A stretch of 64,000 bases of DNA from Aporrectodea caliginosa (Eukaryota > Annelida > Clitellata > Crassiclitellata > Lumbricidae): NCBI GenBank assembly GCA_020284085.1, contig JACEVL010000128.1, positions 2,747,829 to 2,811,828 on the forward strand. The letters are read 5' to 3'. Of the stretch, positions 7,765 to 63,009 are shown piece by piece. The notes under the pieces are model-generated. The model was given only the letters and a program-made list of their open reading frames with translations. It searched no databases and was not told the DNA's origin. Numbering within the stretch: position 1 is the first letter of the stretch; each line of letters begins with the position of its first letter. A program made the translations under genes and the position numbers.

Positions 7765-7772
7765 CTATACAT

Positions 7773-14065: not shown

Positions 14066-14083
14066 TTGCTCTTAATAAGCTTT

Positions 14084-38450: not shown

Positions 38451-38471
38451 TAGGTTAGTAGTGTACAAATG

Positions 38472-38590
38472 GAGAGCCAGGCTACCAGGTCCTCACAGAC
38501 GACTGAGAGCCAGGCTACCAGGTCCTCACAGACGACTGAGAGCCAGCCTACCAGGTCCTCACAGACGACTGAGAGCCAGCCTACCAGTTC
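38472..38590. repeat. Subterminal 33-bp tandem repeat, left arm of A
   Basis: About 3.6 copies of a 33-bp unit beginning gagagccaggctaccaggtc. The inverse array lies at about 45372-45490. Confidence 0.92.
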
Positions 38591-39439
38591 AAAGGTCAAA
38601 TGATGTCATCGGCTGCTATGGCAAAGTTCATTTCAAGGGTCGCTCTTCTTTGAGGGGGGCGTGCGTAGGGCATGCGTGTGCCTACCCCTCACCTTCCAAA
38701 GTGGCAATTATTTTTGGGTGTGAGCCACAGCAGGTGCCTACATCAAATTTAGACCCCTTTGGGTGTGAGCCACAGCCGCTGCCTACATCAAATTTAGACC
38801 CCTCCATTGGCGCTACAAGGGCTTTGAATATTCCCTAAACACAAATTGAGAGATTTTTGTAATACACGCAACCAACTTGCATATTCTTTTGGGCCTTTCA
38901 TTGGGGGCATATTATTTTGTGCTACCGAATTTACACTTAGGGAGGAAGGGAGAGCCCTGCTAGGCAATTTTACGTGGCCACTCCATTTACACTTAGGCCA
39001 ACTTTAAGTGTGGAGGCCACTTTCGCAACGAATATTTAGTACTGGCATGTTGTTTTGAGCAGTACAAGCATTTACTCTTATACCTCAAGCTCATGTATTT
39101 AGCTTGAATTATAGAAAGAGGGGCGGAATTAGGGTTAACTAGGGTTAAGTAGGGTTCGCATAAAGAAGTGTTTAGTGAGTTCACACACAGCCACAAACCC
39201 TTGTAGTTAGTTTGAATTATAGAAAGAGGGGCTCTTGAAGGCGTAGCAAACATTCGCTTACTTAAAACTTGGATAAGTTCTCAGTCAATTTGAAAACTGA
39301 GCTTTTCTCATTGATTATTGAGCATTAAAATTAGCTTCATAGGTTTACTCTAGCCAACAGGAGGTTGATTCGACTTGCAATTTTGAAAGACGGCACACAA
39401 CTCTTGGTATTTGATTTTGAAAGACGATACAGAGCTCTT

Positions 39440-40690
39440 GGCATTTCATTTCGCGGTTTTCAAAATTTTAAGTTCTGAACTTCTCATTTGCTACTTTAAA
39501 ATTTCAGACCTGGTGGTTTTCAAAATTTTAAGTTCTGATCTTCTCGTTTACAAATTTTAAAATTTCAGTTCTTCTCTTTTGCAACATTAAAATTTCAGAC
39601 CTGGTGGTTTTCAAAATTTTAATTTCTGATCTTCTTCATTGCAACTTTAAAATTTCTTATCTTCTCGATTGCAAATTTAAAATTTCTGAACTTCTTCATT
39701 GCAACTTTAAAATTTCTGATCTTCTCGTTTGCAAATTTAAAATTTCTGAACTTCTTCATTGCAAGTTTAACATTTCTGATCTTCTCGATTGGAAATTTAA
39801 AATTTCTGAACTTCTTCATTGCAAGTTTAACATTTCTGATCTTCTCGTTTGCAAATTTAAAATTTCTGAACTTCTTCATTGCAAGTTTAACATTTCTGAT
39901 CTTCTCGTTTGCAAATTTAAAATTTCTGAACTTCTTCACTGCAACTTTAAAATTTCTGATCTTCTGGTTGCGACTTTAAAATTTCAGACCTGGTGGTTTT
40001 CAAAATTTTAATTTCTGATCTTCTTCATTGCAACTTTAAAATTTCTGATCTTCTCGATTGCAAATTTAAAATTTCTTAACTTCTTCATTGCAAGTTTAAC
40101 ATTTCTGATCTTCTCGTTTGCGAATTTAAAATTTCTGATCTTCTCGTTTGCGAATTTAAAATTTCTGAACTTCTTCACTGCAACTTTAAAATTTCTGATC
40201 TTCGCGTTTGCGAATTTAAAATCTTCGTTTGCGAATTTAAAATTTCTGATCTTCTCGTTTGCGAATTTAAAATTTCTGATCTTCTCGTTTGCAAATTTAA
40301 AATTTCTGATCTTTCGTTTGCAAATTTAAAAGTTCGGAACTTCTTCATTGCAACTTTAAAATTTGAGATCTTCTCGTTTGCAACTTTAAAATTTCGGATC
40401 TTCTCGTTTGGCAAATTTAAAATTTCTGTTTGCAAATTTAAAAGTTCGGAACTTCTTCATTGCAACATTAAAATTTGTGATCTTCTCATTTGCAACTTTA
40501 AACTTTGAGATCTTCTCCTTTGCAACTTTAAAATTTCTGATCTTCGCATTTGCGAATTTAAAATTTCTGATCATCTCATTTGCAACTTTAAAATTTGAGA
40601 TCTTCTCGTTTGCAACTTTAAAATTTCGGATCTTCTCGTTTGGCAAATTTAAAATTTAAGAACAGGTGGTTTTCCATCCTTTACATTTCA
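39440..40690. repeat. AT-rich repeat array, left arm of A
   Basis: Around 40 alternating variants of a ~30-bp unit (aaatttaaaatttctgatct tctcgtttgc; the partner variant has gaacttcttcattgcaac). Because the unit is close to a multiple of three, long open frames arise on both strands. These are a by-product of the repeat and I do not annotate them as genes. Confidence 0.9.
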
Positions 40691-40744
40691 GTCCTTGTGG
40701 ATTGTAAATTTAAAATTTCAGAATTTCAGCTTTGCATCGCTTAG

Positions 40745-40990
40745 CTTTCAGACTTTTAGATATCTCAGTTTGGTATGAGGGTGTCTTCTTTGAAAAGTTG
40801 CTGACAGTGAGTTAAAAATGTGATCTTTTAATGGACTCATCATTTTTCAAAGTTACATGAACGAGAGAAACTCACAAATTTTAGATCCAGAAACGGAGGC
40901 GAACTGGGCAAACTTAAGATTGTAGCTTGTATGGCATCATTTAAGACGGATTGCTCATCGAATTTACTTGTTTTTAGCTGAAATAAGCGA
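40745..40990. repeat. Module shared with the loop of element B (left arm of A)
   Basis: About 245 bp aligns, inverted, with 59995-60240 in element B, including ctcacaaattttaga, gcgaact..., atggc..catttaagac and cgaatttact.gtttttagc. Its inverse copy in A is at about 43000-43235. Confidence 0.8.
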
Positions 40991-41426
40991 ATGAATGAAA
41001 GCCTGTACAGGCCTTCTATTAGTTTTGGAAAGCTAAAGAGGAACGGCTATGAGATTGGTAATGTTGCATCTCTTAGGTTGAGCAATGGTATTTTTCTTAC
41101 TAAACCTCCAACTTGTGCGGTTTCAAGTGTTTCAAAATGAAGGTTTTAATCTATTTGCCGGTCGTTGTGTGCTTGCGCACAGAAGAGTGGCCGCGAAGCT
41201 GCCACTCTGTTACGGCGGTGGAGGCGGCGGCGGCGGCGGCGGCACGGGCCTCCCAGATCTTACCAATATCCATGGGCGACCATGTCGCTTTCACACTGAG
41301 AACATGTCCAAGTCTTTTAATTTTGGAGTTTATACTGCAAACAGAGTATCTTCAGAAAGAAGTCAACTGAGAGATGCGAACTTGAAACGTTGAACTGTGC
41401 ATTACAGAAACATTCAACTCAGTTGC

Positions 41427-42554
41427 TAGCAACTTCAAGAGGAGTTGGCATGCATTTTTAAACTGAACTTAACAAATTACAAATGACCAATAGAAATGGT
41501 ATGCATTAATCCTTTTCCATTAGCGACAGGGTTGGTTGCGCTGAACTTTAAGTCTATTTTTGCAACCATGAGCGTACACAAACTTTCATAGACTCTTCAT
41601 TTTTGGAGCGAGTGCTCTAGGAGCGGTTGTAGAAGCTGCAACTGTAGAAGCAGCAGCATGAGCATTCTGAATAGCAGCTGTGGCAGCAGCTTTAATGCAC
41701 ATGGAGCGTTGGCTCGCTCACCACTCAACTCAAAGCCGCTATCAGTTTTGGATGAGTATGAGTTGGTCGCTGCCATTAATCAAAGGTGTTTATGGGAATT
41801 GTGTGTGCCCCACAAAGGTGTAGGATTAGAACTTATAAGAACTTTTTGTGAGCCTGTTTAAGTGTAGTAGCTGTAGCTTATGCCTATACAGACGCAATGA
41901 TAGAACGTCTAAGAAGAAGAAGAGTTTAGCCTAGTGTTATTGTGCATAAGCGAAGAAACGAGTATATGTGATTAAAATTTTAATGAAGTTGTGCTCGTCT
42001 TGGTTTGTTCAGAACAAACCAACGGTATAATATTAAACCATGAATATTCTGAGGGTTTCGACAACCCTTTAGCCACTCAATGGGCCCTTATGTAAATGAC
42101 TGTGCATGTTGAACAGGTTACGACTTGTGCGCAACGCCAGAATTTCTACATTATTCGATTTGCATTTTCTACAAATCATAGACGTTTTAAACATTTTCGA
42201 CTCAGGCTTAAGAGTTAATAGACGATAGTTCGTTGATTTCTCTTCCTTTCGCTCAGCTTCTGCCATGCAAATTTCACATATACTCCCATAATTTCCACAG
42301 ACCTCGAAATGACAAGGCTGCATACGAACAAGATCAGACAACATTAATATATGCTCATCATTGCCTTTGATTTTGTCTACACTGATATGACAATTATCAT
42401 TTGATGATTGCTCACACATCTTGCTAAACTCCTCCATGTCTTGCTTAAAACACATTTTTGCATACAGTTGAGAAATAAACAAACGAGTGCTGAAGATGCA
42501 AATTTAATCATGTTGCAATGGTTTCTATCTTTCCGTTTTCACAACTTTGCATTC
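41427..42554. other. Unique loop of foldback element A
   Basis: Single-copy sequence between the arms. It contains a plus-strand open frame of 67 codons at 41658-41861 (serine-rich start, not recognised) and the minus-strand cysteine-rich frame described next. It also has a tagcagcag-type stretch near 41640 and a hairpin ggtttgttc...gaacaaacc near 42003. Confidence 0.8.
42069..42482 (-). CDS. Cysteine-rich hypothetical protein in the loop of element A
   Basis: A 137-codon open frame, the longest in the loop, starting ATG. It encodes an N-terminal MFISQLYAKMCFKQDMEEFS, a central CHFEVCGNYGSICEICMAEA and a later MICRKCKSNN. The pairs C..C (CEIC) and C..C (CRKC), 29 residues apart, plus upstream C-H and C residues could form a zinc ribbon or two-site zinc finger. 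Acidic and lysine-rich stretches lie between. It is the only protein-like unit in the foldback, so it may be cargo or a relic of the autonomous parent. I do not recognise the family. Splice sites were not resolved, and it could be an exon of a longer gene. Confidence 0.4.
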   Translation of the reverse strand: MFISQLYAKMCFKQDMEEFSKMCEQSSNDNCHISVDKIKGNDEHILMLSDLVRMQPCHFEVCGNYGSICEICMAEAERKEEKSTNYRLLTLKPESKMFKTSMICRKCKSNNVEILALRTSRNLFNMHSHLHKGPLSG

Positions 42555-45500
42555 GCAACTGAGTTGAATGTTTCTGTAATGCACAGTTCAACGTTTCAAG
42601 TTCGCATCTCTCAGTTGACTTCTTTCTGAAGATACTCTGTTTGCAGTATAAACTCCAAAATTAAAAGACTTGGACATGTTCTCAGTGTGAAAGCGACATG
42701 GTCGCCCATGGATATTGGTAAGATCTGGGAGGCCCGTGCCGCCGCCGCCGCCGCCGCCTCCACCGCCGTAACAGAGTGGCAGCTTCGCGGCCACTCTTCT
42801 GTGCGCAAGCACACAACGACCGGCAAATAGATTAAAACCTTCATTTTGAAACACTTGAAACCGCACAAGTTGGAGGTTTAGTAAGAAAAATACCATTGCT
42901 CAACCTAAGAGATGCAACATTACCAATCTCATAGCCGTTCCTCTTTAGCTTTCCAAAACTAATAGAAGGCCTGTACAGGCTTTCATTCATTCGCTTATTT
43001 CAGCTAAAAACAAGTAAATTCGATGAGCAATCCGTCTTAAATGATGCCATACAAGCTACAATCTTAAGTTTGCCCAGTTCGCCTCCGTTTCTGGATCTAA
43101 AATTTGTGAGTTTCTCTCGTTCATGTAACTTTGAAAAATGATGAGTCCATTAAAAGATCACATTTTTAACTCACTGTCCGCAACTTTTCAAAGAAGACAC
43201 CCTCATACCAAACTGAGATATCTAAAAGTCTGAAAGCTAAGCGATGCAAAGCTGAAATTCTGAAATTTTAAATTTACAATCCACAAGGACTGAAATGTAA
43301 AGGATGGAAAACCACCTGTTCTTAAATTTTAAATTTGCCAAACGAGAAGATCCGAAATTTTAAAGTTGCAAACGAGAAGATCTCAAATTTTAAAGTTGCA
43401 AATGAGATGATCAGAAATTTTAAATTCGCAAATGCGAAGATCAGAAATTTTAAAGTTGCAAAGGAGAAGATCTCAAAGTTTAAAGTTGCAAATGAGAAGA
43501 TCACAAATTTTAATGTTGCAATGAAGAAGTTCCGAACTTTTAAATTTGCAAACAGAAATTTTAAATTTGCCAAACGAGAAGATCCGAAATTTTAAAGTTG
43601 CAAACGAGAAGATCTCAAATTTTAAAGTTGCGATGAAGAAGTTCCGAACTTTTAAATTTGCAAACGAGAAGATCAGAAATTTTAAATTCGCAAACGAGAA
43701 GATCAGAAATTTTAAATTCGCAAACGCGAAGATCAGAAATTTTAAATTCGCAAACGCGAAGATCAGAAATTTTAAAGTTGCAGTGAAGAAGTTCAGAAAT
43801 TTTAAATTCGCAAACGAGAAGATCAGAAATTTTAAATTCGCAAACGAGTAGATCAGAAATGTTAAACTTGCAATGAAGAAGTTAAGAAATTTTAAATTTC
43901 CAATCGAGAAGATCAGAAATTTTAAAGTTGCAATGAAGAAGATCAGAAATTAAAATTTTGAAAACCACCAGGTCTGAAATTTTAAAGTCGCAACCAGAAG
44001 ATCAGAAATTTTAAAGTTGCAGTGAAGAAGTTCAGAAATTTTAAATTTGCAAACGAGAAGATCAGAAATGTTAAACTTGCAATGAAGAAGTTCAGAAATT
44101 TTAAATTTGCAAACGAGAAGATCAGAAATGTTAAACTTGCAATGAAGAAGTTCAGAAATTTTAAATTTCCAATCGAGAAGATCAGAAATGTTAAACTTGC
44201 AATGAAGAAGTTCAGAAATTTTAAATTTGCAAACGAGAAGATCAGAAATTTTAAAGTTGCAATGAAGAAGTTCAGAAATTTTAAATTTGCAATCGAGAAG
44301 ATAAGAAATTTTAAAGTTGCAATGAAGAAGATCAGAAATTAAAATTTTGAAAACCACCAGGTCTGAAATTTTAATGTTGCAAAAGAGAAGAACTGAAATT
44401 TTAAAATTTGTAAACGAGAAGATCAGAACTTAAAATTTTGAAAACCACCAGGTCTGAAATTTTAAAGTAGCAAATGAGAAGTTCAGAACTTAAAATTTTG
44501 AAAACCGCGAAATGAAATGCCAAGAGCTCTGTATCGTCTTTCAAAATCAAATACCAAGAGTTGTGTGCCGTCTTTCAAAATTGCAAGTCGAATCAACCTC
44601 CTGTTGGCTAGAGTAAACCTATGAAGCTAATTTTAATGCTCAATAATCAATGAGAAAAGCTCAGTTTTCAAATTGACTGAGAACTTATCCAAGTTTTAAG
44701 TAAGCGAATGTTTGCTACGCCTTCAAGAGCCCCTCTTTCTATAATTCAAACTAACTACAAGGGTTTGTGGCTGTGTGTGAACTCACTAAACACTTCTTTA
44801 TGCGAACCCTACTTAACCCTAGTTAACCCTAATTCCGCCCCCTCTTTCTATAATTCAAGCTAAATACATGAGCTTGAGGTATAAGAGTAAATGCTTGTAC
44901 TGCTCAAAACAACATGCCAGTACTAAATATTCGTTGCGAAAGTGGCCTCCACACTTAAAGTTGGCCTAAGTGTAAATGGAGTGGCCACGTAAAATTGCCT
45001 AGCAGGGCTCTCCCTTCCTCCCTAAGTGTAAATTCGGTAGCACAAAATAATATGCACCCAATGAAAGGCCCAAAAGAATATGCAAATTGATTGCGTGTAT
45101 TACAAAAATCTCTCAATTTGTGTTTAGGGAATATTCAAAGCCCTTGTAGCGCCAATGGAGGGGTCTAAATTTGATGTAGGCAGCGGCTGTGGCTCACACC
45201 CAAAGGGGTCTAAATTTGATGTAGGCACCTGCTGTGGCTCACACCCAAAAATAATTGCCACTTTGGAAGGTGAGGGGTAGGCACACGCATGCCCTACGCA
45301 CGCCCCCCTCAAAGAAGAGCGACCCTTGAAATGAACTTTGCCATAGCAGCCGATGACATCATTTGACCTTTGAACTGGTAGGCTGGCTCTCAGTCGTCTG
45401 TGAGGACCTGGTAGGCTGGCTCTCAGTCGTCTGTGAGGACCTGGTAGCCTGGCTCTCAGTCGTCTGTGAGGACCTGGTAGCCTGGCTCTCCATTTGTACA

Positions 45501-45940
45501 CTACTTAGGTTCCTGATCAACAGTGTTGTTCAGTAATTGAAATACATGTAATTGAATTACATGTTCTGTAATTGTAATTGAATTACATTTTAAGTCCAGT
45601 AATTGTAATTGTATTTCAATTACAATATTGCATGTAATTTGTAATTGAATGAAGTTTGAATTACAAATTACTTTCATAAAGTCAGCAAAGATGCCAGCCT
45701 GCAGTGTTGACCCGAGCCACCCGTTTAATTCAATAAACTGCTCTGCATTATGTTTGCATGGCAACATAATTTTCAACATTATTCTTTCCTTACACCCCTC
45801 TTACAATCTTACAGCGCACTTTGATAGGCCCCAAGGGCAAGGGCTGACCATCATTATCAGAGTATCCATGCAGTCATGCACTCATTCTTAGATAGCATAC
45901 TGTTACTGTATGATACTGCGTCTGCCTACAGAAAACAGAG

Positions 45941-46055
45941 CTTCCATCTTCAGCTCCAGTTGAGCGTCTCTTTAGCACTGCTGGACGAATTGACTAACTC
46001 ACCCAGGCGCAAACTAAGTTCTCTAACAGACTATCATTTTGAAAAACTTTACTGA
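45941..46055 (+). pseudogene. hAT transposase dimerisation-domain remnant
   Basis: The plus strand reads LPSSAPVERLFSTAGRID, then a stop, then after a frame change RRKLSSLTDYHFEKL. This is the C-terminal hATC block (.SSAPVERLFS.AG.I...RR..LS.......L). Stops and a shift show it is dead. It supports the hAT assignment of the enclosing element. Confidence 0.85.
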
Positions 46056-46648
46056 AAATCAAATAAACTCTAACTTGTTTTAATGGATCATAATTGTAAA
46101 TCGTAGGGGAGAGTCTGCACCCTTGATCCTATTTTGGAACTTTTCTCCTTTAATGAAAATGTGTTAACATGTTTTAACTTGGATCAAATGTGTCTAATAG
46201 ACAATTTTATTTTCAATCTAACTTTATATTCAATGTTCTATCATTCCATCATTTTTAATATGTTATGTGCCAAAAACGAAGGTGACTCAGATGGGATCAA
46301 GGGTGCATGTATGTATGCACCCTTGATCCCACTTATATGCACCCTTGATCCTATGTTTGCTCATTTGATCCTGGTGCTGGTTTATCCAACAAAAAGCTGT
46401 TTTGTTATTAACAGTAATATTTTAATGTTGATTACAAAAAGAAAATAACTATATTAGATCTTACACTGCCTGTACTGTCAGATGACTTAGTTATAGGCCT
46501 ACTCGAGATTCTGAACACCAAGATCTTCATGTTCGTCATCATCAGTGTTTTTCCAATTTCAAAACTAAGCACAAGTATGCTTAAAACTTACATTGTGTTT
46601 GTATTTTAACTGTAGTTTTTAACTTTAGCTTAACTTTTTAACATTTAA

Positions 46649-46732
46649 TAGAAATTAACTATAAATTTATCATATGCACCCTTGATCCCATAGGATCAAG
46701 GTGCATATGATAAATTTATAGTTAATTTCTAG
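46649..46732. repeat. Palindrome inside the iterated-TIR element
   Basis: agaaattaactataaattta...gatcc, centre cata, then the inverse. One base differs in the cccttg/aaggt part. Confidence 0.85.
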
Positions 46733-47154
46733 GATCAAGGGTGCATATGCACATGGGGATCAAGGGTGCAACACCCTACTATTCAGTGGCGTCACTAGGG
46801 TCGGTGTCACCCGGTGCGGTAACTCATGGTGGCACTGGCACTGGCACCCCATGTACAACCTCCCTTTCCAGACCAAGCAGAATCCTTAATGATTTTTGTA
46901 CTAATGTTACCGTAAATCGCAATTCCTGTATTTACCAGAATGTAATATTTAAAATAGTGATATTAACAACTAGCAGAATTAGAATTACAAATGCATATTT
47001 TGTTTATTTTATTTCTTATTTTAATCATTTACCATCAGGTCAGCAGTTATATAATTAAAAATCAAATTAGCAAATATTGGTGGACTGTGGAGGGCAATGA
47101 AGGTGCCTGCAGCCTCCTTATAAAATAATGTTTAAAGAATACAGAAAATTATAT

Positions 47155-47168
47155 TATAATATATATAT

Positions 47169-47220
<52 letters not shown>
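47155..47220. repeat. (TA)n microsatellite
   Basis: A long ta tract that was the target of the mariner insertion; a shorter ta tract continues at 48221-48231. Confidence 0.9.
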
Positions 47221-47221
<1 letters not shown>

Positions 47222-47223
<2 letters not shown>

Positions 47224-48220
47224 GGGTGGGCCATTAAAAATGAGAACATCGCGTTCAATCGTGTTTAATAAAATATCGGATTGTGTTTTCAGTAAATCTT
47301 AAACACGTAAATTATTCTCTGATGTACTAACTTACCAAATCAAGCCTTTTCGACGTAACGTGAAGAAAGATTTACAACTTATAGCGTACAATCGTGTGAT
47401 GGGGCAGGTGATAACGAAGGCTGTAAATTAAAACGCCTGCTACGAAGTCAGCAGCTATTTGAAATGTTTCCTAACGAAAGAAGAGCCCGAAGCATTTGGT
47501 CCACAGATTAAAAGACATTTATAATTGCCACACCAGTTAACTGTCCAATTGATCGCGTTTATTCTGATGTAAGAACGAAAAGCAAATTCCAGCACCAACT
47601 TAAGACTCGTATGCGAACATGAACATTTCAGTCGCAGCATCTTGGTTTCGGTCGGTGTGTCTCGGATGGGAAAACCAATGTAGTGTTTGCTGGACCCGGA
47701 GTCAAAGTAAACAGTAAATACTATTGTGATCAGTGCACGTTCTAGAAAAAGGTTTACTTCCTAAGCAAGATGTAGACCTAATCGTCACAATAATTATTGG
47801 ACGTTGCAAGAGGGCGGAGTTCCTTCACACACAGCAAGAGGCACTCAACTTCCATCATCGGGAGAAACTTAATCGAATCAGACATATGGCCTCCAAATTG
47901 CCCAGACCTAAACCCGGTAGACTATGCTGTTTGGGGTGCCCTTAAGCAAAAATCTACCTTCGTCGTAAATGTAAAGTAGAACAACTGACACTGGCCATTG
48001 TTGAGGAATGGCGAAAATTGTCCAAGAGATTTACCGACAGGAGCTTAATTATAACGATCGCGTGGCACAGGCGTTTAAAAGAAATTGTTGAAAATCGAGG
48101 CGGGCACATATATTATAACAGTTAGCAACAAATTACCTGCATTTTGAAAAGAAAAAAGATATTAATTAAATAAATAATTAAGATTGAACGCGATGTTCTC
48201 ATTTTTAATGGCCCACCCTG
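47222..48220 (+). mobile_element. mariner-like element, inactive
   Basis: Inverted termini (c)gggtgggccattaaaaatga plus gaacatcgcgttcaatc on both ends, flanked by TA in a (TA)n tract. Length is 999 bp. Transposase remnants read SDGKTNVVFAGPGVKVNSKY, VLEKGLLPKQDVD and WPPNCPDLNPVDYAVWGALK. The last is the conserved segment around the second catalytic aspartate of mariner (W.PNSPDLNP.DY..WG). Frames are broken, so it is non-functional. Confidence 0.92.
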
Positions 48221-48927
48221 TATATATATATACTTTATTTCGCACAAAGCAGAACAGAGAAACTAAGCAAACTTAGTAAAGACTAGAACAGAAATACAAA
48301 AATACAAAAACTCCTTCCAAACAGACTGGGAGATAACTCAAACTATTGCTTTTCTCGAAGCAAAAACGTAGTGGACCTGCGTTCTTATATAATACATGTA
48401 GTGTCAATAATTGGCAAATTTTATATAATAAAGAAAAAATAATTGGAAATTTTGGCTGATTAGGCCTATATATTAAAACATTGTAATATAGGAATATTAT
48501 CAATTAAAATCAGGTTAGCAATTGCAATTAAAAATTGCAATTAAAAATATTAATATACGCCTATGGCAATATACTCATAAATGAAATAATACAAAAAACA
48601 GGAACAAATACGCAAGCATTTCAGCACTTAGTGAACATCTCGACTAGATCAGAACTTTCCTTTCCTAGCTTTCAAGACTGCGAACTTGTGAAGTCGAAGT
48701 CAGTGCCTTTCGGCGACTTACTTTCAATTGATAATATCGCAAAATCGGAGAGCCTTGATTGTCCCATTGTAGATCGTAAATAGTTCTTTTATAAGTTTAA
48801 GCTTTGAAAAGCTTCTCTGACATAAAGCCAAAGACACACAGATCGTCAGAAATAATTTTAGGCTTACTGAAAGGGCGAGATTCCACGAAGCCCCATTCAG
48901 CAATGAATGTCAAAATGTCAAAACGTC

Positions 48928-49272
48928 TTAAATTGCCAAATCTTTGGCATACTTCAGATTAATCTCTGCTGCTTTCAGATGCCTTCTCAGCCTAGGTATT
49001 TCTATTAAAAGTGTACTCTCGGACACTTCATCATAGAAAGTAGTCAATTTTGGAATGGACACCTTCAACTCTTCTTCAGAGGCAGCTATCAGACCATTTA
49101 TTTGAACAGTCTTAGACATGGCTGCTACTTCTTTGATGGCTTGTTCAATTGAATGCTTCACCAGGTGACTGTGCTTCTCGTTTAGAGAAAGTCCTATAGT
49201 GCCTCTAGCTTTTTCACCAAGTTGAACCATTATTGTAATTGGGTAATATTGACCGCACTGACCGTAGCGCAT
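48928..49272 (-). pseudogene. hAT transposase fragment
   Basis: 114 open codons: SLNEKHSHLVKHSIEQAIKE, then FYDEVSESTLLIEIPRLRRH and LKAAEINLKYAKDLA. The E...S..L..EIPRLRRHLKAA.I block resembles the C-terminal part of hAT-derived ZMYM1/THAP12-like proteins. It lacks the catalytic core, so it is a remnant of the element at 46784-49503. The same region decays further at about 11225-11443. Confidence 0.65.
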
Positions 49273-50193
49273 TAGCAGGCTCTAACAAGTAAATTGCTTA
49301 AGGTAAGTTGATAAAATACATGTAAGCGGGGCTTACGAAAAATGTTTTTGTTGTCTGTTACTGTTAATTTAAAAATAATAAATTTCTGCTGAAACTCTGC
49401 ACAAAATATGTTTAGACAGTCATTTTGTCACTTTGGTGTCACCCCTACGATGGTGACACCCGGTGCGGTCCGCACCCCCCGCACCCCCCTAGTGACGCCA
49501 CTGCTACTATTTTTACATTATGCATAATAACTTTTTATAAACATAACCTAGAACCCTGCAAAGTTGTTTGTACTACACTGAAACACAATATGTTTAAAGC
49601 TATATCAGCAAAATTACTCCCCTAACGCAAATATCGAAACTGTGACTCTGTGAGGTTCGAAAAATCAGCGAAAAAATTACTTTTTACCCACAAAAACTAA
49701 CTTTTGCAATAGAAATAGAACAATTGCTCAAATCCTCTCTGAGACACATGAAGTGACGTCGAATTAAATTTTTTAATAGTTTTGCTCGCTGCTCGGTGAT
49801 ATTGAGTAAGTAAGTACGGAGAAAACCCATTAGGATCAAGGGTGCTTTAGGATCAAGGGTGCAGACTCTGCCATTGGATACCTGACAAACTTATAATACA
49901 ATTGAATGTATATATTACTACAATTTACAAGCCATATATTTTGGTTCATTGGATGTTTTAGTTTAAAAATAGAGTAAATTAAAAATTATCGAAAAAATTC
50001 TAAATCATCTGCCAATTTTAAAGGAATAATTGAAAAGTAATTGGTAATTGAATTACAATCAAAATGTAATTCAATTACTTTCACAATCAAGTAATTGTAG
50101 GCCTAATTGTAATTCAATTACATTTACAAGCATGTAATTGCAATTATAATTGAATTACATTTAGAATGTAATTGATACAACACTCCTGATCAA

Positions 50194-50500: not shown

Positions 50501-50504
50501 AAAG

Positions 50505-51189: not shown

Positions 51190-51510
51190 AAATGGAAGCT
51201 GGATTGATGAAAATAATTGTTGACCTAAATGAAAGTTGGATTGGTGAAACTAATTCTTTATTTAAAAAGAAGCTGTATTGATGAAAAATAATGTTTCTAT
51301 AAATTATAGAAGCTGGAATGATGAAAGAAATTTTCTGCTTCAATAGAAGCTGGATCTAAAAAATTTTCCTTAAGTAGAAGTGGGAGTGACAGGAAAAATT
51401 CCTGCATAGATAGAAGTTGGATTGATGAAAAAATTCTTGGGGTTAGATAGAAGTTGGAATGATGACACTAATTCTTGCTTTAACAGAAGTCCGATTGATG
51501 AAATTTTGTT
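51190..51510. repeat. Minisatellite, ~43-bp unit, about 7-8 copies
   Basis: agaagctggattgatgaaa followed by a variable A/T/C tail recurs with drift (gaagttggattgatgaaa, gaagctggaatgatgaaa and so on). Confidence 0.85.
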
Positions 51511-52758
51511 CTCTTAAAGGGAAGATGAACATTGGTAGACTGCTTGCTTACCAACGTCAAGTACGGCAATGAAGACATTGAAATAATTTAGTAACGTAAA
51601 CTTAGGATAACCCAGATGACTTTCTTGAATAATGATAAGTCAAAGGAATAAGAACTGATTGTTATTGTGGCTGGCAAGATTATTTCTAAGTGTTAGAAAC
51701 TATGAAACCCAATTTGAAATTAATTATTTGTTCAACAGGAAGCCAAAGATTTAAGCACAGGGGTTATATGTTAAAATTTAGAGGTACTAGTTATGGCTCT
51801 AAAATGAATGGGCCTAAGCCAGATTCACAAAGAAACCAGATTGCAGTAATGCACGAGTGATATCAGTGACAGAGTTGTCTCCACTAGAATTGGCAAAGAG
51901 CAGAAACATGAACAATATACATATACATGTACAATGATTGATTGAACTGAACTTGGATGAACTATTTACTGCACCAAACAAATGCTACAGTTATTCATAA
52001 ATTGACGAGTATTGTGTAACAAGAGCCAAGAATAGCTGATAGCTTACATTAGCCTTGCGTCCTTGACCCCCTACTTCTTGATTATTGATCATACGTGTTT
52101 ATTACTTATTTAGTACATATATAGGTAATCAATCAATAGTAGTAATGACAATAAAAGTAATAATGACAGCCTAATAGGAACCACGATAATAATACTAATA
52201 ATAATTAGAATAACAATTGTAACGGTAGTAACAATAATAATAATAATGATAATAATAATAATAATGAAATGAATAAATATTAATAATCGTAATCATAAAC
52301 TCGAAACTTTACAGCGCCCACAAAAGCGAAGTCGCTGGAACCAGCTTATTCACGGCGCTCAATGAAAACAAAATGATCAAAACCTATAGGCATGAGGTCA
52401 AAATCCAGAGTCAGACAGGCAAACAGCTAAGGTGGCAATATAACATACTAAATGCAGAATGTGAATTAGTTACAGCAACAGTTGAGATAATAGTAATGAG
52501 CAGCAGGATTAGATTAAGAATAAGCTAGTAATACTAACACACTGAAATGCAGTGAGTGTAGTAGTTAGAATCAGTTGTAACAAGAGTGCTGAAGTTAGAG
52601 TAATATTGAAGACGTTTTTACATATCGACCCTAGAAATATTGGAAAATCGTCAAGCAAATCCCATCACAATTTCCGATTAGAGACTCGTAAAACAGTCAA
52701 CTGCAATTGTCAAACACACACACAGCGATATTAATCCACAGCAGTAACAGTAAACTTT
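51511..52758. other. Intergenic with (AAT)n tracts and a LINE 3' end
   Basis: (ata/aat)n lies at 52190-52270. Next to it, on the minus strand, a gagcgccgtgaataagctgg ... gggcgctgtaaagtttcgag end looks like a LINE 3' terminus of another subfamily. The rest was not recognised. Confidence 0.45.
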
Positions 52759-53043
52759 TCAACAGAAGTTGTGAACGACGTGTGCGATAGCTCTCCAGTA
52801 AATGCCGACATTCCAACGCCCATTGTTGTAACTCTCTTGCAAGCTTTCAATGCGCCGTTGCAGTCGTCGGGATGACCGTTTACGCGCGGGCGGCGAGTCA
52901 CCACGTTCAACTGCATGTTTAAGACTTCGACATTGTATCTCCTCGTCCTTTAGGCTAATTTTCGGATGAAAATCCACAAGTTCGTGTAGTAGTACAAACC
53001 ACCTCTCCTCTGCAGGTACAATGCGTTCATTAATCCTACTCAT
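52759..53043 (-). CDS. Hypothetical 94-codon open frame, possible first exon
   Basis: Starts ATG and reads MSRINERIVPAEERWFVLLH, then ELVDFHPKISLKDEEIQCRS, then a basic RGDSPPARKRSSRRLQRRIE. The balanced, charged, non-repetitive composition resembles a real N terminus, possibly the DNA-binding end of a transposase or a host exon. Upstream on the minus strand there is gtccactatt/gtccgctatt iteration typical of the edge of a pogo/Tigger-like DNA element. Family not recognised. Confidence 0.35.
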   Translation of the reverse strand: MSRINERIVPAEERWFVLLHELVDFHPKISLKDEEIQCRSLKHAVERGDSPPARKRSSRRLQRRIESLQESYNNGRWNVGIYWRAIAHVVHNFC

Positions 53044-53590
53044 TATTATAAATGGAGCCCAGAACCAAAATGGCGGACCCCCAGAATAGTGGACCCAACT
53101 AAATAGTGGACCCCCGGAATAGCGGACCGGTACCTTTCAAACAACCATTTTAAAGAGAAAATCCAGCAAAAAACAAGAAAACGTGAAATTGTCTATTACT
53201 TAGAATTTTGCTGATCAATTTGCCCTCAAATTTACACACATGGTAAGTGAACTGTTTTGCTGCTCAACACATCTGCAAATAATCACCTAGAAATTGATAT
53301 AATAAAGCGTGAAGACCAAAACACAGTAAAGTACTGGGTCATTCAGTCTCAACTCAACAAATGTTTTGAAAGTTTCCCACTTGACCATCTCAGAGTTTGA
53401 TGAAATTTGCATAGAATGTGCATTAATGTATTAGAACATGCTGTGCAAAAGTTTACAGCAACATTCTTAGCATTTTATTTTTGACAGAATTTTAAGGACG
53501 TCTGCGGTGACCCTGTTTATCGATTTAGAAATGTGAATATGTGATTTAGAAATCGTGTCTTAATTTGCTGCCATATTCAGAAGGCGGTAA

Positions 53591-54042
53591 GGGGCCGTCC
53601 ATAAAGTACGTCACGCTATTTTTGACCATTTTACCCCCCCTCCCCCTGTCACAAACTGTCACAAAACTCGGACCCCCTAAAGTACGTCACACTTTCAACA
53701 TAGAAATAATAATACTTCCGAAAGCAAGGCTAATACATAAACAAGGCTTCGCAACAGCATTATTACTAGCGCTCCAAGCGAGAGGAATCGTGAAAAACAC
53801 ATTCAGGAGATATGCATTTCATGCTATTTTGACATAAAACTAATTAAAATGTTTCAGAAAATTTTTGAAAATTATTTTTAAAGCTATGAAATTCTACTAA
53901 AAAAATTAAAAATAAATTATAAATAAAATAAAAAAAAAATAAATGTGACGTCACACATGGCCTGACCCCCTCCCCTGTCACAAACTGTCACACTTTCTTA
54001 AACCCCCTCCCCTGGAGCGTGACGTACTTTATTGACGGCCCC
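53591..54042. mobile_element. MITE with ggggccgtccataaagtacg ends
   Basis: Inverted termini ggggccgtcca(t/a)taaagtac gtcacgc at both ends, flanked by taa on each side. Internally cccctcccc(c)tgtcacaaactgtcaca is repeated. The 3-bp TAA duplication would fit PIF/Harbinger-like integration, but superfamily is inferred from ends only. Confidence 0.85.
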
Positions 54043-54519
54043 TAAATCCACTATTATTGCAGATAAATTGATGAAATTTGCAGGACACCTAGCTAATGTG
54101 GTGCTAATAAACAGGGCTGTTAAAATCGCGATAAAGTATCGCAATACTTAGTATCGCCGATACGTTTTTCAGTATCACAGCGAGTATCGCGATAGTTTTT
54201 TTTAGCCTGTCGGCGATACTCGATACCAATACTTTTTTCCACTGTAATTTATATATTTTCTCGTTCGCTTGAGTTAAGTTGCGATCAAGAAATACTGAGA
54301 TATAATTCTTTACGCTTCGAAAATTGCCTCTTTCTTTGAAAATAGCCTCTTTCTGCCATCTATGATCGTTGGTGTGAATGGAAAGAATCTACATGTATTT
54401 CACGTGATTAAACGGAAACTGACTTACAAATGTGTAAGAACAAAGAAATAGGTCCTTTGTGTGATGTTCTGGAATCAGAGAGCACATCCAATGAAGATAT
54501 TAGAGTCGCCGGCTTAAAA

Positions 54520-54719
54520 TTGATGGCACTGTTGCAATGGGAAGCCAGCGTAGGACATAGTCATGTAGGTAGACATGTGGGAGAAGCAAGGGAGATGAGC
54601 TGTCAAGTTCAGAACAAACGGAAAGGAAGATAAGCTTGTCTTGGGAAGCACAGCAGATAGTGAAGCCCAGCAAATAGTGAGTTGCAGTAGTCGATGCGAC
54701 AACAAATGAAAGCATGGAC
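54520..54719 (-). mobile_element. L2-type LINE fragment, minus copy
   Basis: The minus strand reads HAFICCRIDYCNSLF and further PLLLPHVYLHDYVLRWLPIA. It is head to head with a plus-strand fragment at 54722 (HAFIYCCIDYCKLLIAGLPK), forming an inverted LINE pair. Confidence 0.7.
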
Positions 54720-54721
54720 TA

Positions 54722-55625
54722 TTTATTGTTATCCATGCTTTCATATATTGCTGCATTGACTACTGCAAATCAGGGTTGGCAAGTTGCCACCGCCGGTTAT
54801 AACCGGTTATTGCCAAGGCTATAACCGTCCCGGCAACAACCTCTTGGCAATAATGGCAACAGCCTCATGGCAAAAATCATTTGGCAAAAATAGAAACCAT
54901 TAATTATTGTGGTAATAAAATATGTAATCTTCACAGTTAGCTTAATTTTTTATTTCTTCTGGCTTGCTACTTTACAGAGTTCATTAATTTAAATATATAT
55001 CATGCTTTAAATCAATCAAGTTTTTCCAAATAAAAATCACCTAATTTAAATAACCATATAATTTCTTCCTAATAAAAGACATTTACAAGTTTTACATATT
55101 AAGTACAGTCAATATCGAATTGTGTAATTTATTAATATGAATTAGAAATTTTACCAAACCATTAGCTTCTATACACTACTAATAAGTTATAATAATTATA
55201 TACTACTGGTCAGGCAAGTATACAGAAAAGGCAATGACCCTGTTGACCTGAATAGACTACTGCAGTGCAAATGGCAGTTTATTTTAGAGTAGTTGAACTG
55301 TAGGTCAGAATTTTTTTATCTTAATCTCATATAGTTGACTTTAACTACATTTATACTAAGGGGTAATGTAGATTTAGTACAGTAGTTTTAATTTCCCACA
55401 AGAAACATTTATTATAACTATGCAGTCTGTGCAGTGAAATATGATTTTCTTTTGCCTTGTCCTTACTTTGGAGAAAATGGACAACTGGCAATAACCGGCC
55501 GGCAACAACTGGCAATAACCGGTTATTGCCACTGTCCCGGCAACAATAGGTTGTTGCCGGCATTAACCCAACCCTGCTGCAAATTATTAATTGCTGGGCT
55601 TCCCAAGGTGAGCTTATTTTCCCTT
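54722..55625 (+). mobile_element. L2-type LINE fragment, plus copy, split by a MITE
   Basis: HAFIYCCIDYCK precedes 54770; LLIAGLPKVSLFSLQ follows 55585. The hAT MITE and one duplication copy lie between. Confidence 0.75.
54771..55576. mobile_element. hAT MITE, ggcaataaccgg family, copy 2
   Basis: Perfect 8-bp duplication ctgcaaat, TIR cagggttgg, palindromic ggcaataaccggttattgcc subterminal motifs. It is colinear with 32154-32923 in the opposite orientation. Confidence 0.95.
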
Positions 55626-56149
55626 CAGTGATGTGGATAATGCAGAACTGTATAGTTGCGAGTACATGGAATCCGATGTCACGTGGATTAATGAAGAAAT
55701 TATCAAGTAACTCCTCAGTTTCAGCTAGGTTTAAGCCAGATATTACAATATTTAGTATTTAATACAAGTTTGTCACTACTCTATTATTAGTGCTCCATAG
55801 CTTTGAAAGTGGCAGCAGTTTTGGCTGATAGCAAAGGATTTTGTATTATTTCAGTGCTAATTACATGCATTTTTCTCAATATAAATTGTCTTACGTAACT
55901 TTTTTCCCCGAAGTGGATTTCTACCAGCTTCTTCAGTAGACTGAAAGTTACAAAAAACGAGAAATTTGGCTTGTAGCACAATTTTGCCTTGGTCCATGAG
56001 TTCCACTCTCTGACTATATCGAAAAGTATTGGTAAAAGTATTGGTATCGGTATTGCAATACTTTTCAGAAACAGTATTGCAATACTTTTACTATGATGTA
56101 TTGGTATTGGCATTACCAATACTTTTTTCCAGTATTGTTAACAGCCCTG

Positions 56150-57208
56150 CTAAACAAGGGCTGTTGAAGAACTAGATATCTGATGGATAGTTTTTTCTAG
56201 CTGCGGATTGAAAATTGGAAAAAACAACGACCCTGTCTGGCACCAGTACTTTACTGCTCCACTATGACCAAATGGGTTGATTAACAGAGAAATTGTGAAC
56301 CATTTGCTGTAATAGTCCACATTATGTGCACAAATAAGCAATTAGGTTGGCTTTATCTATTGCATTATATGGCCATCTGAAATTGACAAAAACCTAATTT
56401 TTGTGTTTTGACGACCATTTTCAAGGCCTAATATGGGCACGTGGGATAGGTGATACAGCTGTAAAATTAGCACCATTGGAAAGAGCAGCTCAAATACTAT
56501 ACTACCGTATTAACTGCAACACGAATTGGTTTTTTAGACTCCTATAGTTCAATCAATGTAGTTGTTTCCATTATAGTAGAGTTTTAAGCATTCGCAAGCT
56601 GATACCAGGCTGACATAATGCAGACCATGTCCTTAATTAGCCTACAAAATAGGTCTGAGAAATAGAGCAATGACAAATGACTGTACTGAGATGAAATAAT
56701 GTTCTTTAAGATTGTATTTATGTCTTAAAGTGACTATTTAATACATAATTTTTAAACGAACTGTAGAAGCATGTTGAGTCATCTGCAAATGTCCAACAAT
56801 AGCTAAGTACTAAGCAGAGGATTTAATTTTGTATTACACGGATGTCCATGTTAAATGAATAATTCATATCTTTACATATACCGGTAATTGTAAAATTTAC
56901 TAGTGAGGCCCATCTAGTCTGAAGATAAGGCGAATTTCTGGTCAGGAAACACAACTTCACATGAATCGACAAGTGAAGATTCACGGGGGATCATGCACCA
57001 TTTAGTCAATGATCAACTCAACCAAAAGACTGCACTGCCTGTCTCTATCATGGCCACTGGCAGATTGGCTCATCTGAAGAACGTGATGATGCGCAAGTGA
57101 ATTTCATGCATTCTGATATCAGCCACTGGAGGAAACTTACCTAATTCAGAGTTGTTATTTGTATATTTCTTCAAACAGTTACCATGAACGTAGACAGGAT
57201 TAGGTCTC
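56150..57208. other. Intergenic, no gene supported
   Basis: No conserved coding pattern or repeat termini were recognised. Confidence 0.4.
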
Positions 57209-57223
57209 AGTAGTAAAGGATAG

Positions 57224-57298
57224 GCGGGTTAATCCATAATTCCATAAGGCGGGTTCAAGCATAATTCCATAAGGCGGGTTCAAGCATAATTTTACTTG
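57224..57298. repeat. Subterminal 25-bp tandem repeat, left arm of B
   Basis: Three copies of a 25-bp unit starting gcgggttcaagcataattcc; the inverse array is at about 62797-62871. Confidence 0.92.
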
Positions 57299-59217
57299 GC
57301 TGTTACAAGCATAATGTAGTCCAAGTACAGTTCAAAGTTCAAACGACGACCTCAGCCAAAAACAGACATCCATTAAAGCTGGCCAAAGATCATTTCAAGG
57401 GTCCCTCTTCTTGGGTGGGGCGTGCGTGTGCCTACCCCTCCCCATTCTTCTTCATTCGCACTACATCACTTAGCAAAGCTCAATGAATATTCATTATTTG
57501 CAAGTTCCGCATTCCATTTGGGCATTTCACACGGGCACGCTGCCAATTTTTATACGCGCAAGATGACAATTCGTTCAAGCAATACAATCTTTTCACCTAG
57601 GCAAGCACTCAATTTTTACTCCATAGCATTCATCTAGCGCCCATACGCATCATCCATCTTTGCTCAAGCGTTGCAAGGCGCCTTTTTGCAAGCTTTCTTA
57701 GTACAATCAAGCCGCGTATGTCAATACATTATGCGTTTATACTTGCAACCAATGACAGTACAAGCCAGTGAATTATAAAATTATCCAATAAGGGGCTCTT
57801 TAGGGTTTGACGTCACACACACTCACAGCGACATGCTCTAGTAGCCACCTCGAATTATAGAGAAATGGGCTGAGTTAGGTTTCACTTACTTGAAACTCGG
57901 CTAATTTGACGGACATTATTGCCTGACTGTATAATTTTGAGTAGTTGTACATAGCTTTAACTTTAAGAATGAACAATGTTGGGCATAGGCTTACAGTTTA
58001 AGGGCGTTTTCTCATTGTAATTTATATTTTAAGCGTACAACCCTCACATTAGCCTTCTATAGCACATTACTAAGAAGCAAAGTTATCAAATTATGTTTAA
58101 TCTAGCATTGAGTGGGCTGAGTTGACATTTATTTTGAATCACTATACAGATCGCTACGAATATTTTGCATCAACCGAGTACATGAGCGCGACATATTCCA
58201 TCTTACTAAGAGTTAGCTTTAGCCTAGCGAGTGGCGGAGTGAATAAGAGCTAATGCAAGGAGGGTTCAACATCTCTTGCTACGCTTTTGAAATTTGTGAA
58301 AATCGTGAATTATAAAACACTCATCAACGTTCAGTGCTTATATTCGCCCGAATTTAGTTTTTCTATAGCTCAAAACCTACTTTTATACTCTCAGTAAGCA
58401 TATTATTGACATATTCTAGAGCAAACATACCAATTGTAGGCGTTTATATTATAGAATGAGTGATTTTACATGACACACTTATCAGTTTCTAGCCGACTTG
58501 TAGAGTTAAGTTGAGTGGTTTCTTAGCGAACCTAGTGTTTTCATTGTTATATGGAGGGGTCTTTCAAGAGCTCGCTTGGCATGCTTTTACAACAGTTGTC
58601 TTACACTTATACTATTTTACGGTTTTCGCAATTCATTAGACCTTTACTCAATAGAAAATCCTAAGTAGGCTTCGCATATTTAGTCGTGAAGAGGCTGTTT
58701 TGTCGTGCATTTTTGAATGAATATAAATTTTATCCTCGATTAATCCTTATAGACATGGCACCTTATCATTCATTACCAAGACACTTAGGCTTAAACTTAT
58801 CACATTGTGTATAATCTAGACATGGCCATGCTGAGGTGACGTGCATTTTGAAACACGATACAATTATTTGCATCTTCTTTACGACTTTACCTAAAACTCG
58901 CATTCAAAGCTAGCTTGACAGTAGAATATTGAGATGGTATGCCCTCCAGAAACTTCATTCTCGCGGAGTTTTTCCCTTAAACATTCATATAATTCAATTC
59001 AGCCTTATAAAGTTTCTTAGCTAACTTCTTTATTGTGCGAATTAGCATCTTTAGTTTTTCACGAGACGATGACAGTAATGGCAATCAACAGTTTTTAGTT
59101 CTCCAAAAATTTCAACAAATGGTTCGTAATTCTGTAAAATCTCAAATTCTTTGAGATTCATGTGGCATGGAAAAACCTCAATTGGGTAATTTTTTGCTTA
59201 GCAAGCGACATTTACAG

Positions 59218-59220
<3 letters not shown>

Positions 59221-59275
<55 letters not shown>

Positions 59276-59460
59276 TGCGGGAGGGAGAGAGTGAGAGGGT
59301 GATGGAGAGCGAGCGAGAGAGAGAGAGAGATAGAGATGGAGTGCTGGAGGGAGAGAGCGAGAGGGTGATGGAGAGAGAGAGAGCGAGAGAGAGAGAGATG
59401 GAGTGCGGGAGGGAGAGAGCGAGAGGGTGATGGAGCGAGAGCGAGAGAGAGAGAGAGCGA
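59221..59460. repeat. (GA)n-rich block, left arm of B
   Basis: A pure (ga)n tract of about 50 bp, then three ~65-bp units (gatggagtgcgggagggaga...). The inverse is at 60650-60873, with a shorter pure tract. Confidence 0.92.
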
Positions 59461-59908
59461 GTTACTCTCAATTCTTACCCAATAGAAACAACATTACTAG
59501 AGAAAGTGAACGTGGGACAATGTAGAATCTAACACATTTCTTAAATTTTGCGAAAAGTACAGGAAGGAACATGTACATTTCGAGTAAGAGGCTTAGAATT
59601 AGCGTTAGCGACTTATGCTTAGGCTTTACATATCCATAGAAGGCTGAGTTGCATCGCATTTTTGCAAGACGTGACTGACTGAGCAATTCTCAATGAATAT
59701 CCTATACTTACAATTCTGGTTTTTCTTCTCTTAGTGGTTTCTGATATTGTGGGTTTCATCGCGTAGCTTTCTCAGTTTCAACTCTAAGCTTAGCTTTCAT
59801 ATCCTGTGGTTTTTCAGCTCATACATTTCTTATCGTGTGGTTTTCAACTCGTAGGTTTCACATCATATGGTTTTCAACTGCTAGGTTTCACACGTTTAGA
59901 TAACTCGA

Positions 59909-60215
59909 CCCACGTCGCTGCATCAGCTCTGAGAATAATCGCAATCGTGGTATGGCAATGTGAAACGTGTCAGAAAATACATCATCCGTTATTTCCGCTA
60001 AAAACCTGTAAATTCGAAGAGTGATCTGTCTTAAATGGGGCCATACAAGTTACCGTCTTAAGTTTACCATGTTCGCCTCTGTTTCAGCGTCTAAAATTTG
60101 TGAGTTTCGCTCTCAGTCACATACCTTTGCAACGCTGAAAAACGACGTGTCCCTTAAAAGAACTCATTTTGACGCACAGTCAGCATCTTTTCACTGATGA
60201 CTCCATCTTATCAAA
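59909..60215. other. Loop of element B, homologous to an arm module of A
   Basis: About 220 bp (from about 59995) aligns with 43000-43235 of element A in the same orientation and continues into the right arm. No open frame of note. Confidence 0.8.
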
Positions 60216-60829
60216 TCGAGTTATCTAAACGTGTGAAACCTAGCAGTTGAAAACCATATGATGTGAAACCTACGAGTTGAAAACCACACGATAAGAAATG
60301 TATGAGCTGAAAAACCACAGGATATGAAAGCTAAGCTTAGAGTTGAAACTGAGAAAGCTACGCGATGAAACCCACAATATCAGAAACCACTAAGAGAAGA
60401 AAAACCAGAATTGTAAGTATAGGATATTCATTGAGAATTGCTCAGCAAAAATGCGATGCAACTCAGCCTTCTATGGATATGTAAAGCCTAAGCATAAGTC
60501 GCTAACGCTAATTCTAAGCCTCTTACTCGAAATGTACATGTTCCTTTCTGTACTTTTCGCAAAATTTAAGAAATTTGTTAGATTCTACACTGTCCCACGT
60601 TCGCTTTCTCTAGTAATGTTGTTTCTATTGGGTAAGAATTGAGAGTAACTCGCTCTCTCTCTCTCTCGCTCTCGCTCCATCACCCTCTCGCTCTCTCCCT
60701 CCCGCACTCCATCTCTCTCTCTCTCGCTCTCTCTCTCTCCATCACCCTCTCGCTCTCTCCCTCCAGCACTCCATCTCTATCTCTCTCTCTCTCGCTCGCT
60801 CTCCATCACCCTCTCACTCTCTCCCTCCC

Positions 60830-60875
<46 letters not shown>

Positions 60876-63009
60876 CTGTAAATGTCGCTTGCTAAGCAAA
60901 AAATTACCCAATTGAGGTTTTTCCATGCCACATGAATCTCAAAGAATTTGAGATTTTACAGAATTACGAACCATTTGTTGAAATTTTTGGAGAACTAAAA
61001 ACTGTTGATTGCCATTACTGTCATCGTCTCGTGAAAAACTAAAGATGCTAATTCGCACAATAAAGAAGTTAGCTAAGAAACTTTATAAGGCTGAATTGAA
61101 TTATATGAATGTTTAAGGGAAAAACTCCGCGAGAATGAAGTTTCTGGAGGGCATACCATCTCAATATTCTACTGTCAAGCTAGCTTTGAATGCGAGTTTT
61201 AGGTAAAGTCGTAAAGAAGATGCAAATAATTGTATCGTGTTTCAAAATGCACGTCACCTCAGCATGGCCATGTCTAGATTATACACAATGTGATAAGTTT
61301 AAGCCTAAGTGTCTTGGTAATGAATGATAAGGTGCCATGTCTATAAGGATTAATCGAGGATAAAATTTATATTCATTCAAAAATGCACGACAAAACAGCC
61401 TCTTCACGACTAAATATGCGAAGCCTACTTAGGATTTTCTATTGAGTAAAGGTCTAATGAATTGCGAAAACCGTAAAATAGTATAAGTGTAAGACAACTG
61501 TTGTAAAAGCATGCCAAGCGAGCTCTTGAAAGACCCCTCCATACAACAATGAAAACACTAGGTTCGCTAAGAAACCACTCAACTTAACTCTACAAGTCGG
61601 CTAGAAACTGATAAGTGTGTCATGTAAAATCACTCATTCTATAATATAAACGCCTACAATTGGTATGTTTGCTCTAGAATATGTCAATAATATGCTTACT
61701 GAGAGTATAAAAGTAGGTTTTGAGCTATAGAAAAACTAAATTCGGGCGAATATAAACACTGAACGTTGACGAGTGTTTTATAATTCACGATTTTCACAAA
61801 TTTCAAAAGCGTAGCAAGAGATGTTGAACCCTCCTTGCATTAGCGCTTATTCACTCCGCCACTCGCTAGGCTAAAGCTAACTCTTAGTAAGATGGAATAT
61901 GTCGCGCTCATGTACTCGGTTGATGCAAAAATATTCGTAGCGATCTGTATAGTGATTCAAAATAAATGTCAACTCAGCCCACTCAATGCTAGATTAAACA
62001 TAATTTGATAACTTTGCTTCTTAGTAATGTGCTATAGAAGGCTAATGTGAGGGTTGTACGCTTAAAATATAAATTACAATGAGAAAACGCCCTTAAACTG
62101 TAAGCCTATGCCCAACATTGTTCATTCTTAAAGTTAAAGCTATGTACAACTACTCAAAATTATACAGTCAGGCAATAATGTCCGTCAAATTAGCCGAGTT
62201 TCAAGTAAGTGAAACCTAACTCAGCCCATTTCTCTATAATTCGAGGTGGCTACTAGAGCATGTCGCTGTGAGTGTGTGTGACGTCAAACCCTAAAGAGCC
62301 CCTTATTGGATAATTTTATAATTCACTGGCTTGTACTGTCATTGGTTGCAAGTATAAACGCATAATGTATTGACATACGCGGCTTGATTGTACTAAGAAA
62401 GCTTGCAAAAAGGGCGCCTTGCAACGCTTGAGCAAAGATGGATGATGCGTATGGGCGCTAGATGAATGCTATGGAGTAAAAATTGAGTGCTTGCCTAGGT
62501 GAAAAGATTGTATTGCTTGAACGAATTGTCATCTTGCGCGTATAAAAATTGGCAGCGTGCCCGTGTGAAATGCCCAAATGGAATGCGGAACTTGCAAATA
62601 ATGAATATTCATTGAGCTTTGCTAAGTGATGTAGTGCGAATGAAGAAGAATGGGGAGGGGTAGGCACACGCACGCCCCACCCAAGAAGAGGGACCCTTGA
62701 AATGATCTTTGGCCAGCTTTAATGGATGTCTGTTTTTGGCTGAGGTCGTCGTTTGAACTTTGAACTGTACTTGGACTACATTATGCTTGTAACAGCCAAG
62801 TAAAATTATGCTTGAACCCGCCTTATGGAATTATGCTTGAACCCGCCTTATGGAATTATGGATTAACCCGCCTATCCTTTACTACTGGTCTCCCTCTTAA
62901 ATATTGGGTAAACTCTTCATCATTACACAACTCACTATATCCCAGGAGTGTTTCTATTCCTTTGTCAGACATTGCTACCGTACTTTTGCATCACTCACCT
63001 TAACTATCA

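Follow-up and report, generated by a model that had tools for sequence, protein, structure and literature searches.

Two long foldback elements with Polinton-type ends and 6-bp target-site duplications in Aporrectodea caliginosa

A stretch of 64,000 nucleotides from the annelid Aporrectodea caliginosa (GenBank assembly GCA_020284085.1, contig JACEVL010000128.1, positions 2,747,829 to 2,811,828 of the forward strand; this whole stretch is called the window) contains two long inverted-repeat structures, A and B, and the question is which kind of mobile element they represent and how they came to be folded almost from end to end. A preliminary description, made from the sequence alone, had put them at 7.05 and 5.68 kb with sharp ends, and this proved exact: A covers 38457-45505 (7049 bp) and B covers 57209-62886 (5678 bp), and alignment of each half with the reverse complement of the other half showed that both are near-perfect palindromes. 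The best explanation, to which we give a probability of about 0.72, is that A and B are complete insertions of non-autonomous, Polinton-dependent foldback elements, which were likely integrated by the integrase, and likely copied by the protein-primed DNA polymerase, of a Polinton elsewhere in the genome.

The ends carry most of this explanation. Both elements begin with (AGT)2 and finish with (ACT)2, and each is flanked by a perfect 6-bp direct repeat, TAGGTT at A and GGTCTC at B, as had been described; the duplication of A is readable as 6 bp only. The window holds 23 AGTAGT and 28 ACTACT sites, and identical 6-bp flanks were found only at the ordered pairs of A and B. Across 500 order-1 Markov shuffles, equal 6-bp flanks (spacing 200-25000 bp) occurred at 12 pairs in total. 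None of these had a 14-nt inverted match, against two in the window, so 0 of 500 shuffles matched it. A looser scan, with AG..CT ends, matching 6-bp flanks and 13 of 16 end bases inverted, returned 10 rows, which were A, B and eight rows within their arms at which the matching flank is a palindromic 6-mer. The tips of A and B agree in all of their first 6 bases, and 22 of the following 60 are identical in the ungapped comparison, a weak excess over the null mean of 15.2 (30 of 1000 shuffles reach 22); the doubled trinucleotide is the sole tip stretch held exactly between the two elements. Within the window, only partial matches to an empty site were found, one flank at a time.

These termini and duplications match those of Polintons/Mavericks. 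The commonest of several ends in vertebrate Mavericks is (AGT)2//(ACT)2, with perfect 6-bp duplications used for recognition (PMC8097293), and duplications of 6 bp are also given for Polintons/Mavericks elsewhere (PMC8969392, PMC10045372), together with long inverted repeats in the first of these sources. A and B share all three features with vertebrate Mavericks, that is, the ends, the perfect 6-bp duplications and the long terminal inverted repeats. They differ in being 5.7-7.0 kb instead of 12.7-24.6 kb long (PMC8097293), in being almost wholly palindromic, and in that no integrase, protein-primed polymerase or capsid gene was found in the 19 of their frames that were run against Pfam. The preliminary description had tied them to Polintons through 5'-AG ends and the 6-bp length; the complete (AGT)2//(ACT)2 motif is more specific than 5'-AG. 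Its suggestion of a non-autonomous, Polinton-dependent foldback family is well supported by the full six-base Maverick end together with the 6-bp duplication. A and B also have the structure of foldback elements, with very long inverted repeats, internal tandem arrays and a short middle. Foldback anatomy is thus combined in them with a Polinton integration signature, because the ends and duplications fit Mavericks and not the other 6-bp or foldback groups that we compared.

The arms, described before as 2.7-3.0 kb long and nearly identical, were found to have 9 mismatches and 3 gap events over 2972 columns in A, and 8 mismatches and 5 gap events over 2702 columns in B (Table 1). Over ungapped columns this is 9/2949 in A and 8/2669 in B, which means a divergence of about 0.30% in each. 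No further copy of A or B was found by blastn in the remainder of the window.

Table 1 Features of elements A and B, with positions in the window
Feature	Position	Strand	Evidence
A left target-site duplication TAGGTT	38451..38456		
A left arm, starts AGTAGT	38457..41426	+	arm alignment
A subterminal 33-bp tandem repeat x 3.5, left	38472..38587	+	
A subterminal box, left copy	38622..38693	+	blastn vs B
A 30-bp-period array, ~40 units, left	39473..40657	+	
A ~260-bp module, left copy	40742..40994	+	blastn vs B
A loop, 1128 bp	41427..42554		arm alignment
A loop, open part of broken gene	42069..42503	-	relatives and RING of relative
A right arm, finishes ACTACT	42555..45505	-	arm alignment
A ~260-bp module, right copy	42987..43239	-	blastn vs B
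A 30-bp-period array, right	43324..44488	-	
A subterminal box, right copy	45269..45340	-	blastn vs B
A subterminal 33-bp tandem repeat, right	45375..45490	-	
A right target-site duplication TAGGTT	45506..45511		
B left target-site duplication GGTCTC	57203..57208		
B left arm, starts AGTAGT	57209..59908	+	arm alignment
B subterminal 25-bp tandem repeat x 2.8, left	57222..57291	+	
B subterminal box, left copy	57384..57443	+	blastn vs A
B GA-rich array, left	59222..59461	+	
B 30-bp-period array, left	59791..59892	+	
B loop, 307 bp, contains most of single ~260-bp module	59909..60215		arm alignment
B ~260-bp module, single copy over apex	59982..60242	-	blastn vs A
B right arm, finishes ACTACT	60216..62886	-	arm alignment
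B 30-bp-period array, right	60234..60333	-	
B GA-rich array, right	60649..60871	-	
B subterminal box, right copy, matched part	62668..62711	-	blastn vs A
B subterminal 25-bp tandem repeat, right	62804..62873	-	
B right target-site duplication GGTCTC	62887..62892		

From the ends inward, the order of features is the same in A and B, namely AGTAGT, tandem repeat, box, array and module. The subterminal tandem repeats that had been noticed are present in both, and blastn gave no match between the 33-bp unit of A and the 25-bp unit of B. Two shared internal modules had been proposed as well; the sharing holds, and the count is three: a subterminal box, a 30-bp-period array and a module of about 260 bp. 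The box lies about 170 bp from the ends and is 75% identical over 72 columns and 89% over 45 (blastn, E 8e-10), and the module is 77% identical over 263 columns (blastn, E 1e-52), being present once per arm in A and as a single copy across the apex in B. The arrays sit just outside the module, with about 40 units in A and about 3 in B. Judged by sequence, A and B are relatives. The module looks noncoding, since its differences fall 8/10/10 across the codon positions of the best frame with no bias; a coding origin was dropped on this ground and on the lack of a Pfam match or a homologue, although one frame had some amino-acid similarity.

The loop of A contains an open frame for which 7 relatives were found among 8 candidates, two at 98% identity (JGI contigs) and five at 63-76%. 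One of these relatives, P0005, has a RING domain (PF13920); among solved structures it comes closest to XIAP and other IAPs (E 3e-10). In A's loop the IAP-type RING tail is out of frame and interrupted, so on sequence grounds the frame is a gene relic. The end repeats, box, module and loop protein family had no related locus in a collection of viral contigs, which was searched with exact patterns and may omit this genome.

How such palindromes could be made is suggested by protein-primed replication. A Polinton integrase would recognise the AGTAGT end and insert the element with a 6-bp stagger, and the doubled terminal AGT may enable protein-primed initiation by jumping back. Adenovirus initiation by jumping back uses a doubled terminal triplet, and terminal repetition is thought to be common in protein-primed replication (PMC4974454); by this analogy, the exact keeping of the doubled AGT in the tips is suggestive of the same role. 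A displaced single strand, or a molecule without one end, may have folded back near the 30-bp array and the module, and the folded strand would then be copied to the surviving end, which would make both arms copies of one end. The arms would be held nearly identical by further rounds of this copying or by conversion between them at a later time. The box, array and module are read as putative cis signals because otherwise unlike elements keep them in the same order, and the broken gene in A's loop would be a former cargo. The fold-back origin appears clearer in B than in A: the right arm of B continues through the module as in A, and the left arm breaks off after about 27 bp of the module-matching stretch, which would fit a left arm copied from the right one once the strand had turned in this region. 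We put forward fold-back copying during protein-primed replication as the source of the palindrome only tentatively, at somewhat less than even odds.

A precedent for the regeneration of ends may be seen, by analogy, in EMALEs, where 3 of 33 complete elements are truncated and their inverted repeats are nevertheless said to be such as 'must have regenerated' (PMC8547959). Complete EMALEs are 5.5-21.5 kb long with repeats of 0.2-2.3 kb (PMC8547959). They resemble A and B as shortened integrating elements with inverted repeats thought to be regenerated, but they are protist virophages, mostly coding, with duplications mainly of 3-5 bp, and the available text of that source does not mention a foldback form (PMC8547959). 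Among the papers listed in our searches of the open-licence literature, none on non-autonomous or foldback Polintons was found.

Several points weigh against Polinton dependence and against the proposed way of copying. The bases adjoining the ends of B are complementary (C...G), so B also allows the reading CAGTAGT...ACTACTG, with GTCT as a 4-bp duplication. As a control, the whole window was scanned for perfect 14-nt inverted ends flanked by direct repeats of 2-10 bp, leaving aside rows within A or B. This gave 8, 1, 3, 2, 2, 0, 2, 0 and 1 rows for repeat lengths of 2, 3, 4, 5, 6, 7, 8, 9 and 10 bp, respectively; A was found at 6 bp and B at 4 bp in this alternative form, and many printed rows were AT repeats. 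We prefer 6 bp for B because it agrees with A and accounts for more matched bases. The tips and box gave no sign of a special single-strand structure (z-scores -1.00, -0.55, -0.08 and 0.55). The 30-bp arrays of A and B are alike: they reach a best score of 38.3 bits, and 100 shuffles of B's array, all of the single-base kind only, stayed at or below 25.4. The (AGT)2 motif was published for vertebrate Mavericks and is applied here to an annelid, and the arms of 2.7-3.0 kb exceed the range of 46-1447 bp given for the inverted repeats of vertebrate Mavericks (PMC8097293). Only two copies are known, both in the window, no autonomous partner has been seen, and the clustering of their arm mismatches also fits conversion.

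Gene content is a further such point. Stop-free frames of at least 55 amino acids were collected from one arm and the loop of each element, outside the 30-bp array of A, and 19 of the 24 were run against Pfam; no integrase (rve), protein-primed PolB or capsid match above the cut-off was obtained from these 19. The matches displayed (DUF6431, SCAMP and DUF1030) were all under the curated cut-offs, and the loop frame of A had matches far below the cut-off to a Y1_Tnp transposase (E 0.37) and a polymerase-delta zinc finger (E 0.65). The earlier statement that no Polinton gene is present therefore holds for the frames run, and A and B were classed as non-autonomous dependants and not as Polintons because Polinton genes of their own were not found.

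The alternative that survives best accepts mobilisation by Polintons but derives the palindrome from ordinary chromosomal events of the kind considered for Galileo (inverted duplication, unequal exchange, conversion between the arms). An origin of long terminal inverted repeats by inward recruitment and tandem repeats is described for unrelated transposons (PMC3573991, PMC4079207), and the arm mismatches are clustered instead of evenly spread (P 0.0018 in A, 0.0004 in B), as is expected of conversion tracts, with 5 of the 9 in A lying within its 30-bp-period array. However, A and B have unlike arms and are each palindromic almost throughout, with an arm divergence of about 0.30%, which would be explained more simply by the element's own copying, and we consider the chromosomal route rather unlikely.

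A separate superfamily with a DDE transposase, having 6-bp duplications and AGTAGT ends by coincidence, is less probable still. It would agree with the lack of Polinton genes in the 19 frames and with the assignment of most known foldback elements, with exceptions, to Mutator and not to Polinton (PMC4079207). But each group that we compared differs from A and B in its ends or duplication length. Tetris and Galileo share with A and B long inverted repeats, internal tandem repeats and long-armed copies without a working transposase (PMC4079207, PMC3573991); Tetris, however, has duplications of 8-10 bp and arms of up to 1735 bp (PMC4079207), and Galileo, a P element, has 7-bp duplications and arms of up to about 1.26 kb (PMC3573991), whereas A and B have 6-bp duplications and longer arms. 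A Mutator-type foldback of the Tetris kind was rejected since the duplication of A is exactly 6 bp, and P/Galileo since neither element has 7 bp. IS3EU and GingerRoot share the 6-bp duplication and differ in the termini, which are TA..TA in IS3EU and mostly TA..TA, occasionally TG..CA, in GingerRoot (PMC10045372), so they were ruled out by the AG..CT termini of A and B. Dada has duplications of 6-7 bp and inserts into small RNA genes, and Dada-U1 and Dada-U6 are without terminal inverted repeats (PMC3706591); it was rejected because A and B have kb-long repeats and the only Rfam match in the window at the gathering score lies outside them. As the full six-base Maverick end is matched by both elements, the distinct superfamily that the preliminary description had left open is not needed.

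Amplification and the making of long-read libraries are known to produce inverted chimeras, but we reject an assembly or library origin as hardly credible, because two unlike palindromes stop at the same six-base end, their otherwise different flanks begin with perfect 6-bp direct repeats, and the two arms of each are separated by indels and by substitutions (9 in A, 8 in B).

Other features were seen elsewhere in the window. The 8-bp rows of the control scan included a 2720-bp element at 46784-49503 with 17-bp inverted ends CAGTGGCGTCACTAGGG and an 8-bp duplication CTACTATT, which we take to be probably a hAT-type transposon, 8 bp being the length expected for hAT; its part 49096-49195 is 86% like 11378-11477. 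A 2878-bp segment at 4929-7806 is bounded by perfect inverted repeats of 34 bp, which start CGCGATTAAAAAAATTAATCG, and has the direct repeat TTAAT (5 bp); it contains a reverse transcriptase frame (5164-6840, RVT_1). A 957-bp element at 26183-27139 has 26-bp inverted ends GGGGTCATTGCATAATTACGTAACGC, a 3-bp direct repeat TAT and internal repeats bearing CCCACCCACCC. A histone 3' untranslated region stem-loop (Rfam RF00032) lies at 32936-32980 and scores 34.1 bits, just over the gathering score of 34. The minus-strand frame 24318-24674 has a Brix domain (E 8e-18) and may come from a host gene for ribosome assembly, either as an exon or as a copy. Reverse transcriptase frames, this Brix domain and the histone stem-loop together suggest an animal genome. 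A unit of about 140 bp occurs three times in direct orientation at 12787-16305, the other two being 96% and 61% identical to the first; we guess that these may be copies of a short interspersed nuclear element.

Non-autonomous dependence on Polintons could be taken one doubtful step further, in which A and B would be satellites of animal Polintons, that is, self-complementary replicons that lack genes for movement, are copied by a protein-primed polymerase by way of snap-back molecules, inserted by the Polinton integrase and perhaps packaged, with one end serving for the two origins and for the two integration sites. Among protein-primed viruses such as adenovirus, defective genomes of the snap-back type would be the parallel to A and B if these are genome-fixed satellites. 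If true, animal Polintons would support satellites. For annotators, the signature would be (AGT)2//(ACT)2 ends with a 6-bp duplication and a near-complete palindrome. A class of foldback elements riding on Polintons, if true, would link the elongation of kb-long foldback arms to protein-primed replication.

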